64,000 nucleotides of DNA from NCBI GenBank assembly GCA_030272155.1, contig CP126204.1, positions 1,789,501 to 1,853,500 of the forward strand, given 5' to 3'. The notes beneath the pieces are model-generated. The model did not search any database and had not been told where the DNA came from. It was given only the letters and a program-made list of their open reading frames with translations. The translations under genes were made by a program, and so were the position numbers. This document shows positions 1-64,000 of the stretch, piece after piece. The stretch's first letter is position 1. Every line of letters begins with the position of its first letter. This DNA is from Tetradesmus obliquus. Lineage: Eukaryota; Chlorophyta; Chlorophyceae; Sphaeropleales; Scenedesmaceae.

Positions 1-131
1 TCAAAAGGAATCATGTGAGTGGTACACCAACAGCCCCTTCAACGAACACCAGCAGCACAAACTCGCTGTGCGCTTTTGTCGCACCAGCAGTTTTTGTTAA
101 GCATAGCACCCCAACGCACAATGCGGCGCAC

Positions 132-551
132 CTCGCTGCGCAGCTGCAGCGATGAGCGCAGGCTTTCGGAGCAATCCGCCCAGTCAACGCAACAGCGCTT
201 GAACATTGAATTAAGATGCAGTGCTCTTGCTGCGCCGCGGTGTAAGATGTCGCAACACCAGCAGATGTTTCACACCATCTTCAAACACAGAAGTTATCTG
301 CTGCCGTACCTCGCTGCGCAGCTGCAGTGATCAGCGCAGGCTCTTGGAGTCATCGCCCAATGACGCAACAACAGCAGTGCTCAAGATCTAAACAGCACGC
401 AGCGCACTTCGGCTCTTTTGACACCAAACCGATTGCAGCAACACCAACAGCCCCCTCAACCAACACAAGCAGCACAAACGCGCTGTGCGCTTTTGTTGCA
501 CCAACAGACTCTAACTATATGCATAGCACCCTGACACACAATGCGGCGCAC
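132..551 (-). repeat. Copies of RAD1 exon 2 3' end with donor site
   Basis: Two copies of the last ~48 nt of exon 2 plus the downstream intron lie at about 310-357 and 132-180. The GT positions (plus-strand AC) fall near 551, 309 and 131. Intron sequence containing gcatagcacc and cacaatgcggcgcacctcg recurs with the copies, so the repeat unit spans the exon-intron border. The copies carry base changes relative to the working exon. Confidence 0.8.
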
Positions 552-1298
552 CTCGCTGCGCAGCTGCAGTGATGAGCGCAGGCTCTTGGAGTCGTCCGCC
601 CAGTGCAGCTCCACCCCCTCAGGGGCAAGCACCACCGTGCACGCCTGCAGCAGCAGCAGCAGCAGCAGCAGCAGCCGGCTGACCAAGGCTCGCGGTTGCT
701 GCATGTAGCAGCAGTGGCTGCTCAGTGCTGCCAGAGAATGCGGCTTCACCGTCCTCTTCTCCTGTACCGACTTAATCTTTTCATGCTGTTCGGTGTGCCC
801 TGCCGCCCACCCCGCTACTAGCCTAGGAGGCACTCGAAGCTATTTGGCAGCACCAACCCCCCACCCATCCTGCTTCGTGCCCAGCTGCTCTGCATGGCCT
901 ACCTGCAACCTGATTGGCCATTTCCTGCAAGCCGCCCACCTGCTTGGCGCTGATCTTCATGGCTTGCAGCAGCGTGGCGAGCCTTAATCATAGACAGCAA
1001 TGACGAGCAGAATCATGCGGCCAGCGTGCCCACCTGCTTTGCGCTGATCTTCATGGCTTGCAGCAGCGTGGTGAGCCATAGCAATACACAGCAATGACAC
1101 GGGCCATAGACATAGACAGCAATGGCCCCGCGATGCAGGAGCATGAGGCAAGCCGCCCACCTGCTTTGCGCTGATCTTCATGGCTTGCAGCAGCGTGGTG
1201 AGCGAGCGGATGTTGGACAGCGTGAGGTGCACTGGCGGCAGCTGCTGCTCCTCCTCCTCGTGTTCCTGCTCCTGCTCATCATTGCTGTCTATGTCCAT
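552..1298 (-). CDS. RAD1: RAD1-type 9-1-1 checkpoint clamp subunit, 5' part
   Basis: RAD1 is a subunit of the PCNA-like 9-1-1 clamp that loads at damaged DNA in the nucleus. Model: exon 1 complement(1161..1298), 46 codons, and exon 2 complement(552..644), 31 codons, both phase 0. The protein starts MDIDSNDEQEQE, has an acidic stretch, then the strand-helix segment LTLSNIRSLTTLLQAMKIS, followed by CTVVLAPEGVELHWADDSK. This order matches the start of RAD1 (conserved N-x-R-x-L-x-x-[IL]-L-x-A, then a segment like ATxNGIKVTVEDAK). The rest lies beyond the left edge. The acceptor of exon 2 sits directly after a CTG tract (plus-strand CAG at 648-672). Extra copies of both exon ends are listed separately. 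Family assignment is from memory of RAD1; another PCNA-fold clamp protein is less likely. Confidence 0.7.
930..1080 (-). repeat. Copies of RAD1 exon 1 3' end with donor site
   Basis: Two copies of the ~48-nt end of exon 1 (encoding TTLLQAMKISAKQ) followed by the donor gtgggc lie near 1028-1076 and 938-983. The more distal copy has a C for A change (KISAKQ to KISAKQ-like, tttgcg to ttggcg). They lie in the intron between exons 1 and 2. Confidence 0.8.
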
Positions 1299-63200: not shown

Positions 63201-63988
63201 CAGCTTAGCAGCGGCTTCGCTGCTGACAACAGCCAACATGGCAGCAGGAACCTGCAGGGCAGTCTCATGTGCACGCGCGTACTCAGTAGAAGGCACGCGC
63301 ATGCTTATCCAGATGCTCACCCAGATGTGCATGCCATTGAAATTACATGCGCATGTTCAGCCACAAAGAGATGGCAATGCGCTTGACCCACCTGGTTGGG
63401 TGCCACAGTCACGCCCAGCTTCTCCCCGAGTGCCGCCAGCAGAGAGTCCACAGGCAGCGCCCTGCAGCCCACATCCTGGCTTTGTATAAGTTCATGCTTT
63501 TACATCCTGCAACTGCTTGCTCTGGCTGCCTTTTACACCCAGCCAAACCTAACGAGCTGCTGCTGCTGCTGCCCGCCCTGAGGCCCCCAGACACACAGCA
63601 CTTTCAAGCGATCACCAGCACCAGCATGAACAGGCACAGAACAACCAGACAACTTGTGTTACAAACCCACCTGGTTGGGTGCCACAGTCACGCCCAGCTT
63701 CTCCCCCAGGGCCGCCAGCAGGGAATCCACCGGAAGCCCTGCAGCCCACATCCTGCAACAGTGCTTGCCCTGGCTGGTTTTGACACCCATCTGCAGTTGG
63801 CATGCTGCTGCTGCTGCCCGTCCTGAGCCCCCAACACCACAACACCTCCAAGCTGGCACCTCGAGCAACACAAGAAGTCACACCCAAAGGACTAGAAAAT
63901 ACAGTGCGCTTGACCCACCTGGTTGGGTGCCACAGCCACGCCCAGCTTCTCCCCCAGGGCCGCAACAAAAGAATCGACCGGAAGAGCC
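60300..63988 (-). CDS. Type II metacaspase, C-terminal half
   Basis: Type II metacaspases are Ca-dependent Arg/Lys-specific cysteine proteases. Exons in transcript order: complement(63392..63461) or the equivalent complement(63919..63988), then complement(62882..63001), complement(62063..62227), complement(61499..61610), complement(61061..61157), complement(60300..60411). Segments: VDSLLAALGEKLGVTVAPNQ, FGSDASAKLGPLIQKF (linker region; compare FGEDAS in plants), a Gly-rich stretch, then the p10-side GRGLLITGCQAEETSADACP, AFGALTNALTTTVNQF, and the C-terminal FAQNPCLECDAANADAPFVL. These match the GxLLSGCQxDxTSAD and QxPGLxC...PF signatures. The p20 domain with the catalytic His and Cys lies beyond the right edge. 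CTG tracts precede the last two acceptors. Confidence 0.85.
61383..62005 (-). repeat. Copies of metacaspase exon ends (GCQAEET and SADVAQQ regions)
   Basis: Copies: complement(61383..61433), end of the GCQAEETSAD exon, with TGA-containing change; complement(61675..61744), start of that exon (LPLAGAKPSPDVQLPPGRG); complement(61951..62005), end of the preceding exon (FSLALEMLGSADVAQQ). Confidence 0.9.
62540..62881 (-). repeat. Copies of metacaspase exon 62882-63001 end
   Basis: A long near-identical copy (LIQKFQGALDAAGGAEALAAQ with donor) lies at about 62612-62685, and a decayed one near 62755-62790. Confidence 0.88.
63072..63988 (-). repeat. Copies of metacaspase exon starts and of the VDSLLAALGEKL exon
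   Basis: The start of the ARAAMVAAFGSDAS exon is repeated near 63072-63125 and 63200-63252 (more diverged). The whole 70-nt VDSLLAALGEKLGVTVAPNQ exon occurs three times: 63392-63461, 63671-63738 (68 nt, frameshifted) and 63919-63988 (70 nt, intact, some residue changes). Confidence 0.88.
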
Positions 63989-64000
63989 CTACAGCCCACA

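Follow-up and report, generated by a model that had tools for sequence, protein, structure and literature searches.

The window, by which we mean the whole stretch of 64,000 nucleotides of Tetradesmus obliquus DNA that was analysed, is part of a 4.8-Mb contig in a genome of 104.7 Mb in 17 contigs. Two of its genes were modelled, both on the forward strand. The model of the LepA/GUF1-like gene, built with tblastn using E. coli LepA, splice sites and a spliced aligner, gives a protein identical to the published P0001 over 603/603 aa. The DEG1 protease gene was modelled with the spliced aligner, and its spliced protein is identical to P0121 at 388/390 positions; since the gene is about 6 kb long and the contigs carrying P0121 do not exceed 2315 bases, P0121 is probably derived from cDNA. 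A Pfam scan of ten ORFs returned no family above cut-off. Beside the exons of both genes lie partial copies of these same exons (Table 1).

Table 1. Exons of the two modelled genes and the partial exon copies beside them (positions in the window)
Feature	Position	Strand	Remarks
LepA/GUF1-like gene, 12 modelled exons	3578..12673	+	start-codon exon precedes model
LepA exons, first six modelled	3578-3694, 4486-4572, 5093-5155, 5588-5735, 6222-6376, 6859-7032	+	
LepA exons, last six modelled	7929-8114, 8722-8853, 10101-10353, 10756-10876, 11694-11853, 12458-12673	+	
Two acceptor-side copies, 3578 exon head	3339..3502	+	outside 66-copy census
Two donor-side copies, 3694 exon tail	3790..4025	+	
Donor-side copy, 5735 exon tail	5817..5899	+	differences: 3 synonymous, 0 non-synonymous
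Possible donor-side copy, 6376 exon tail	6433..6481	+	low complexity 0.49; outside 66-copy census
Acceptor-side copy, exon 6859-7032	6619..6686	+	CAG + 65 nt; 97% identity
Donor-side copy, exon 6859-7032	7156..7288	+	differences: 6 synonymous, 1 non-synonymous
Array of five acceptor-side copies, exon 7929-8114	7306..7925	+	period 124
Two donor-side copies, exon 7929-8114	8205..8415	+	both stop 15 nt beyond exon end; differing sequence after each
Two acceptor-side copies, exon 8722-8853	8482..8672	+	
Array of seven donor-side copies, exon 8722-8853 (15 protein letters not shown)	8942..9833	+	
Acceptor-side copy, exon 10756-10876	10628..10676	+	49/49 identical, flanks unlike
Two donor-side copies, exon 10756-10876	10932..11045	+	
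Three acceptor-side copies, exon 11694-11853	11218..11588	+	period ~152; AG lost in first
Two donor-side copies, exon 11694-11853	11917..12095	+	first a classic tandem copy, intron flank 52/57 alike; second has GC for GT
Acceptor-side copy, exon 12458-12673	12278..12360	+	upstream flank/spacer weakly alike (41/58)
DEG1 protease gene, 8 exons including stop	50748..56852	+	spliced aligner
DEG1 exons, first four	50748-51010, 51487-51560, 52451-52578, 53346-53441	+	
DEG1 exons, last four	54127-54265, 54706-54927, 56211-56380, 56772-56852	+	last with stop
Short donor-side copy, 51560 exon tail	51773..51797	+	
Acceptor-side copy, exon 52451-52578	52027..52081	+	AG lost
Four donor-side copies, exon 52451-52578	52648..53093	+	junction missing from last
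Three donor-side copies, exon 53346-53441	53631..53815	+	72-nt unit, 99% alike
Two acceptor-side copies, exon 54706-54927	54460..54634	+	
Two donor-side copies, exon 54706-54927	55067..55453	+	copies vs each other: 9/11 variable columns at third codon positions
Two acceptor-side copies, exon 56211-56380	55793..56124	+	
Donor-side copy, exon 56211-56380	56476..56599	+	121/124 identical, flanks unlike

The exon-edge census was carried out on four modelled genes from three contigs. LepA and DEG1 were taken because the preliminary description of this DNA had named them; CCT4 and cpn60B were drawn by size from 11 PF00118 genes outside the window, a pick that is biased for the outside gene C15, where a partial copy was already visible before the choice, none having been seen beforehand in C8. 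CCT2 (C9, L031) was excluded, as only five of its exons could be modelled. Low-complexity matches were dropped before counting (3-mer filter in the census, 4-mer filters in the repeat surveys), and matches with fewer than 12 exon bases were removed from the census. For LepA, the number of repeat families was 16 or 15 in two counts for which the stretch started at a different base.

We found 66 exon-derived copies in the introns of the four genes, all of them in the intron adjacent to their exon and on the expected side; 65 contain a junction of the expected kind, and the remaining one is an exon-tail piece lying downstream. The non-adjacent introns of these genes held no exon-derived copy (target length over exon-intron pairs 173,354, versus 37,266 for adjacent ones), the adjacent introns held no inverted copy, and none of the four genes has a complete extra exon, every copy being a partial exon with one splice site. 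The consistent polarity announced in the preliminary description, with exon starts and their acceptor upstream and exon ends and their donor downstream, is thus confirmed; it is largely forced, because an intact protein requires the spare half of a junction-spanning duplication to lie on the intron side. A junction is spanned by 32 of the 35 local repeat families, two others being exon-only and one intron-only, where random placement predicts 15.4 junction-spanning families (maximum over 200,000 simulations: 27), and the 16 families having a pair of at least 90% identity all span a junction. Markov-random sequence gave no repeat at the threshold used. In the genes examined, copies of exon edges with their splice sites occur in neighbouring introns far above chance, also outside the window.

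Not all junctions are affected: a copy accompanies 16/37 acceptors and 16/37 donors (32/74 junctions), with as many as seven extra copies at one edge. Head and tail copies are not clearly associated (9 of the 41 exons carry both kinds, 7 just head copies and 7 just tail copies), and local-repeat density is uneven, from 0.7% to 20% of complex sequence across six blocks. In a motif-only genome test, the donor-like core AGGTG was enriched in repeats (55/204 vs 21.2 expected), but rarer permuted cores outranked it (GGGTA 3/14, GTGGA 11/39) and GGTGA came close behind; we therefore set this test aside and relied on surveys comparing block length with spacing.

The preliminary description had exon ends recurring with their splice sites in six named genes. 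This stands for LepA and DEG1, which were modelled; in a scan of the window, 127-1203, 42844-43221 and 62603-64000 also showed repeat pairs carrying donor or acceptor motifs, and 32841-34031 showed no pair of this kind, so that the coiled-coil gene is unconfirmed. The count of “well over 50” copies in 64 kb is plausible, as LepA and DEG1 alone give about 49 (30 and 16 in the census, to which are added two upstream of the first modelled LepA exon and one of low complexity). Copying is indeed concentrated at exon ends with splice sites, in unrelated genes, and exon interiors are clearly not duplicated as often as ends. The copies lengthen introns as had been proposed, with 37% of complex LepA intron positions inside local repeats.

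The term “tandem”, in contrast, suits a minority of the copies only. In 200 kb elsewhere in the genome, the repeated block is shorter than 0.9 of the spacing in 71/79 independent pairs and in 23/23 pairs of at least 90% identity (73/80 independent pairs when blocks longer than 200 bases are dropped), whereas a simple tandem duplicate has a block as long as its spacing. Likewise, the “adjoining intron” said to be copied is often just the splice signal, the median number of intron bases, counted up to 30, being 11 for the 37 donor copies and 17 for the 29 acceptor copies. Only 3-4 intron bases are present in 9/29 acceptor copies, and at most 11 in 19/37 donor copies, including one that ends before the junction; sharp ends are not universal, as 20/29 acceptor blocks extend at least 6 bases into the intron. 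Flanking sequences are unrelated in 26/66 copies, weakly alike in 31/66 and clearly homologous (z>15) in 9/66; those that can be aligned are often about 65-75% alike, against about 90% for exon parts, which fits introns and synonymous sites diverging together (dS between copy and working exon is ~0.22-0.26). The pyrimidine fraction upstream of acceptors is 0.64 in copies and 0.66 in working sites, whereas random CAG positions within introns give 0.48 (p=2e-11); among the acceptor copies whose flank z is <3, 10 in number, it is 0.645. Given these working-type tracts, we rejected the idea that bare copied blocks were inserted at random places in introns.

Ordinary tandem duplications arising at random could produce such a landscape if exonic ones were purged, junction-spanning ones tolerated and intron parts decayed beyond recognition. 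Polarity would follow automatically, and classic tandem units whose intron parts are homologous do exist (LepA 11912-12023, cpn60B exon 1, CCT4 exon 9); the clearly homologous and the weakly alike flanks are compatible with classic or old tandem duplication and count against the recombination reading put forward below. This explanation, which we consider rather unlikely, nevertheless predicts far fewer junction-spanning families than were found, and has to face the absence of intron-only families among the 16 at ≥90% identity. In addition, the copies at 6619, 10628 and 56476 combine exon parts of 97-100% identity with flanks lacking clear similarity, which cannot be of one age if neutral.

Codon-level differences also depart from what random duplication would leave. 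Between copy and working exon, dN/dS is 0.21-0.27 (transition weights 1-3; 32 families; 95% bootstrap limits 0.15-0.39), not the ~0.5 (about 0.53) expected under neutrality had the copy been free from the moment it arose. Five copies of CCT4 exon 10 vary at six columns, each of them synonymous, and at one proline position the copies and the working exon together use all four codons; translation of these copies was rejected, since the reading frame is lost across the first spacer (donors 244 bases apart). Among copies, changes by codon position number 40/33/64 (third-position excess p=8e-4), an excess carried mainly by CCT4 exon 10 (0,0,6) and DEG1 exon 5 downstream (2,0,9), while neutral-looking arrays include LepA exon 7 downstream (4,4,3) and LepA exon 10 upstream (4,6,4). 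Upstream of LepA exon 9, there are 0 differences over 45 exon bases beside unrelated flanks. Codon counts are unsafe for cpn60B, whose joined model has three stops in frame. We also discarded, by reasoning, the possibility that the working exon repeatedly converted the copy, as non-synonymous changes would still accumulate and no strong synonymous bias would result.

Selection might instead keep the copies as splicing elements, namely decoy or auxiliary sites with exonic enhancers, and let the spacers drift. AG or GT is retained in 61/65 copies, while dinucleotides in the exon parts are retained in 81% of cases (p=0.0035), a difference that is partly built in because alignments extend through matches; pyrimidine tracts are kept at copy acceptors, and in the array of LepA exon 8722-8853 the exon part is visibly better conserved than the spacers. 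Splicing elements, however, need no codon-like constraint, yet the best arrays show it, and only 32/74 junctions carry copies at all, so that we regard such selection as quite unlikely. Nor did we see any good sign of the decoy splicing or exon turnover suggested as effects in the preliminary description: AG or GT is lost in 4/65 copies, and some copies are gapped. The one probable cDNA-derived protein, P0121, includes no copy sequences.

The many blocks that stop near splice signals could also reflect splicing- or RNA-coupled copying of exon edges (RNA-templated repair, R-loops at splice sites, reverse splicing), and R-loops are possibly favoured by the G-rich intron starts (G 0.32) and pyrimidine-rich intron ends (C+T 0.58). 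Spliced RNA is nonetheless an unlikely template, as nearly all donor copies hold intron bases past the cleavage site and non-adjacent introns are devoid of copies; this improbable route moreover leaves the spacers and the synonymous bias unexplained. A mobile element or introner inserting near splice sites with long target duplications would account for the block-spacer-block layout, but deserves hardly any credence: the two spacers tested, out of many, are single-copy in the 104.7 Mb in a search that skips very common words (the 169-nt spacer 6687-6855 that follows the 6619..6686 copy, and spacer 7044-7155 before the 7156..7288 copy), and the exon parts range from 14 to 159 bases. For LepA exon 6859-7032, the genome holds, beyond the two copies, one distant match (78% over 79 bases); a close resident paralogue is therefore not the source there. 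As for an assembly artefact, haplotypes of a mixed sample joined end to end would give a similar picture of partial edges, diverged introns and differences at synonymous sites; we consider this very unlikely in view of the seven extra copies at one edge, the decayed copies with lost splice sites, the tandem arrays (e.g., 53629-53867) and the presence of copies on several contigs.

The direct observations are exon anchoring and polarity in the four genes, many block ends near splice signals, two single-copy spacers, low dN/dS and a working-type acceptor context. Our preferred reading, tentative and of less than even confidence, is that recombination anchored on exons, one-sided or unequal and mostly between diverged haplotypes, left the copies as by-products, which then passed through a splicing filter. 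We infer the following course. The introns of the two haplotypes would be too diverged to pair, while the exons would still do so; a break within an exon would be repaired by invasion of the matching exon on the diverged allele, and synthesis would continue beyond the splice site into the intron of that allele. The second end, having no homology, would be joined end to end or, alternatively, unequal exchange would take place between pre-existing arrays. The product would be one whole exon and, in the neighbouring intron, a partial edge that stems from the other allele and includes the splice site, the intron stretch from that allele forming the spacer between the two. Splicing would take in any copy that has both splice sites, and the protein would be disrupted by a copy placed inside an exon; partial edges on the intron side would thus survive, later to amplify in tandem and decay. 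Differences are mainly synonymous between copy and working exon, as recombination with a diverged haplotype would have it, and less so among copies; against diverged haplotypes, an allelic dS of 0.2-0.4 would be extreme within one species, and the neutral-looking arrays and the lack of differences upstream of LepA exon 9 also weigh on that side. It is possible, if doubtful, that introns grow in this manner as archives of past alleles, with failed or unequal exon-only exchanges each leaving an allelic edge and foreign intron.

In the open-licence literature that we searched, no description of pervasive exon-edge copies was found. The closest likeness is intron gain by tandem genomic duplication, as reported for potato RdRp (PMC4974935) and Drosophila (PMC2891723), with which our case shares local duplication and extra exon pieces bearing splice sites beside an intron. 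The preliminary description held that this model predicts such structures, but its arrangement differs: a new intron arises inside an exon, its donor being followed by the beginning of the downstream exon and its acceptor preceded by the end of the upstream one. Here, introns that already exist hold extra edges of the exons on either side of them, which is the opposite arrangement, and head-to-tail copies are a minority. Introners and transposon-driven intron gain change introns on a large scale in eukaryote genomes, according to one account (PMC9860276); here, the two spacers tested are single-copy, and what is copied belongs to the host, namely the exon next to the intron. Internal gene and exon duplication, reportedly treated by Gao and Lynch in 2009, likewise involves exons and introns within genes; our four genes showed no complete extra exon, just partial ones with a single splice site. 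One-sided homologous repair with end joining and patch-mediated or paired-nick tandem duplication in plants are known as rare or induced events, whereas the copies described here are exon-anchored and found at 32/74 junctions; a duplicated template-homologous stretch followed by an unrelated continuation is nevertheless what such processes predict. Decoy splice sites and pseudo-exons are splice-competent-looking sites within introns, whereas our copies reproduce the edge of the neighbouring exon together with one splice site.

Exon-edge copying is a concrete source of long introns in T. obliquus, whose mean intron of 462 bp is the highest among five green algae compared by gene prediction in one study (PMC5966456); for long introns in Chlamydomonas relatives, another leaves the mechanism open (PMC8226300). 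If the haplotype reading is true, introns are a record of recombination between diverged lineages, and if they are also archives of past alleles, this is a separate route of intron lengthening. Near-identical splice sites in natural competition offer a direct test of exon-end pairing by the spliceosome. In practice, the copies corrupt gene annotation, as decoy edges occur in both of the published T. obliquus models compared exon by exon: P0001 uses the first copy of the 3578 exon head as exon 3356-3467, in a different frame, and P0135 contains 7 inserted residues that derive from the copied start of a CCT4 exon.

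Each exon of four genes was aligned, with up to 30 flanking bases, to all the introns of its own gene, and 66 extra copies of exon edges were obtained, of which 29 precede the exon concerned and 37 follow it. Every one lies in an adjacent intron; none was found in the non-adjacent introns of the same genes, despite 4.7 times more target sequence aligned, and no inverted copy reached the threshold in a search of the adjacent introns. The consistent polarity claimed in the preliminary description is borne out, with the exon start and acceptor region in 29/29 upstream copies and the exon end and donor region in 36 of the 37 downstream ones, the last ending 12 bases short. 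Of the 37 acceptors and 37 donors, 16 of each kind have a copy, and 23 of 41 exons are affected. We also defined repeat families without reference to exons and compared them with random re-placement, blocks wholly within exons being forbidden. Of these 35 families, 32 span a junction, against 15.4 expected and a maximum of 27 over 200,000 simulations, two are exon-only and one is intron-only; all 16 families with a pair at at least 90% identity are junction-spanning. Exon ends are, thus, copied together with their splice sites, as had been proposed, and exon interiors are not copied as often.

The window (G000:C14:1789501-1853500) belongs to the nuclear DNA of a green alga whose genome has 17 contigs and 104,662,953 bases (C14, which holds the window, 4,804,715 bases; C15, 4,553,750 bases). 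LepA exons were set by tblastn using E. coli LepA and splice-site inspection, and the spliced protein is identical at 603/603 residues to the published P0001 ("OEZ86_008468 [Tetradesmus obliquus]"). For DEG1, we used a purpose-written spliced aligner, with internal borders agreeing between two references; with P0001 and P0002 as queries, it regained the LepA exons except the start. The DEG1 protein is identical at 388 of 390 residues to P0121, which is probably cDNA-derived, given that no contig carrying it exceeds 2,315 bases, and which has none of the DEG1 exon-edge copies. The generality set consisted of two chaperonin genes, CCT4 and cpn60B, out of 11 found by a PF00118 search; P0135 ("OEZ85_001296 [Tetradesmus obliquus]") matches CCT4, its 503 aligned residues being identical to our model, from which it departs by a 7-residue insert and another C-terminal end.

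Compared with the working exons, the 66 copies show 233 synonymous and 147 non-synonymous differences, the cpn60B counts being weak because its joined frame contains three stops. Family-averaged dN/dS is 0.21, 0.25, and 0.27 at transition weights 1, 2, and 3 (bootstrap limits 0.15–0.30, 0.18–0.35, and 0.19–0.39). A copy free of constraint since its birth is expected at about (1+omega)/2, near 0.5; the low ratio, thus, suggests that coding selection acted on both lineages during much of their divergence, though the copies are now intronic. CCT4 exon 10 shows this best: all six variable columns among five tail copies are synonymous third positions, and 7 of 8 fixed differences from the working exon are synonymous. 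Over all arrays, variable columns among copies are distributed 40/33/64 by codon position (p = 8e-4 versus thirds), 15 of the 64 coming from two families, and several arrays appear neutral. Such codon-like constraint is left unaccounted for by selection for splicing function.

The exon part of the copies ranges from 14 to 159 bases. Among the 29 acceptor copies, the number of intron bases is just 3–4 in nine and below 26 in 20, and the median of the 37 donor copies is 11, these counts being limited by the search edge at 30. When the intron flank of each copy was compared with that of the working site, the similarity score z was below 3 in 26 copies, 3–15 in 31, and above 15 in nine; about two fifths of the copies thus have unrelated flanks, about half have weakly similar ones, and one seventh have flanks of clear homology. 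Two spacers between copy and working exon, searched against the genome, occur once each. Plain tandem duplication accounts for the polarity of the copies, for their being tolerated, and for those few flanks that are homologous, yet it leaves unexplained the near absence of intron-only families, the high exon identity next to unrelated flanks, and the low dN/dS. These would be jointly accounted for, together with the codon-like constraint, by exon-anchored recombination between diverged haplotypes, to which we give somewhat less than even chances. Such haplotypes would pair in exons only, and extension beyond the exon would import the other allele's intron; the copy would have been a coding exon up to that event, and partial edges, having no partner splice site, would persist. 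The weak point is the second haplotype that we infer: its synonymous divergence would be about 0.2–0.4, so large for one species that it may reflect hybridisation or a cryptic species pair. That 40 of the 66 flanks are at least weakly similar tells slightly against haplotype recombination, still our preferred reading, and slightly in favour of tandem duplication.

The upstream pyrimidine fraction is 0.64 for copy acceptors, 0.66 for working acceptors, and 0.48 for random intronic CAG (0.645 for the 10 acceptor copies with z below 3); judging from this composition, the copy carries along, or originated at, a genuine intron end. AG or GT is retained in 61/65 copies versus 81% of other dinucleotides, a comparison subject to bias, since alignments are prolonged wherever bases match and changes in the working exon are counted among the exon differences. 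Introns of the four genes are strongly asymmetric, with G-rich first 100 bases (G 0.32) and pyrimidine-rich last 100 bases (C+T 0.58), and TTTAGGG-like motifs were seen by eye in some donor-side spacers.

Repeated sequence makes up 14% of complex sequence in the window and its flanks and 0.7% to 20% in five 40-kb blocks of other contigs, analysed from sequence without gene models; density differs nearly 30-fold between the blocks of C2 and C5 (stretches L013-L016 and L021-L024; 0.7% versus 20%). In the five blocks, a donor motif lies near the 3' edge of both copies in 13 of 80 independent pairs (40–200 bases), versus 3.2% for single random segments, a test that leaves acceptor-type pairs uncounted.

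Coordinates of genes, copies, and neighbouring features (window positions unless a contig or stretch is named)
Feature	Position	Observation
LepA	3578-12673	repeat coverage 0.37
DEG1	50748-56852	repeat coverage 0.30
CCT4	C15	13 exons
cpn60B	C8	8 exons
Region	13200-17000	repeat coverage 0.011
Region	17000-31000	repeat coverage 0.057, chiefly short-period arrays (Tandem Repeats Finder)
Region	48000-50500	repeat coverage 0.001
Copy pair	10628-10676, 10752-10800	identical across 49 bases; flanks without similarity
Copy pair	8205-8288, 8342-8415	both stop 15 bases beyond exon end; different sequence follows each
LepA exon	6859-7032	head and tail copies jointly span whole exon, overlapping by 14 bases, and look like a further exon split around the working one
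Only other genome match to that exon	G000:C14:267495-267573 (-)	78%; may belong to a second LepA/GUF1-type gene of C14
LepA stop-codon region	12588-13060	also repeated downstream of gene; coding ends, besides splice junctions, may get copied
Copy annotated as exon	3356-3467	in published LepA model P0001
Copy annotated as exon	L033 (stretch with CCT4), reverse complement 4215-4235	in published CCT4 model P0135
Open frame	23466-24644	392 residues; by eye, putative retroelement remnant
Microsatellite	26642-27088	perfect (TG)n, 447 bases
Long minisatellite	43676-44093	21-bp unit x20 (97%)
Long minisatellite	46377-46780	31-bp unit x13 (99%)
Peptidase C14 (metacaspase-type) exon match	G000:C14:1855837-1855968 (-)	past window end; metacaspase gene, therefore, extends out of window

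In the openly licensed literature surveyed on tandem-duplication intron gain, introners, internal duplication, and algal genomes (PMC5966456, PMC8226300), we found no description of exon-edge copies, which is weak evidence for their novelty. Further T. obliquus gene models may be affected by copies annotated as exons; P0137, a close CCT4 protein from short contigs, is without the copy included in P0135.
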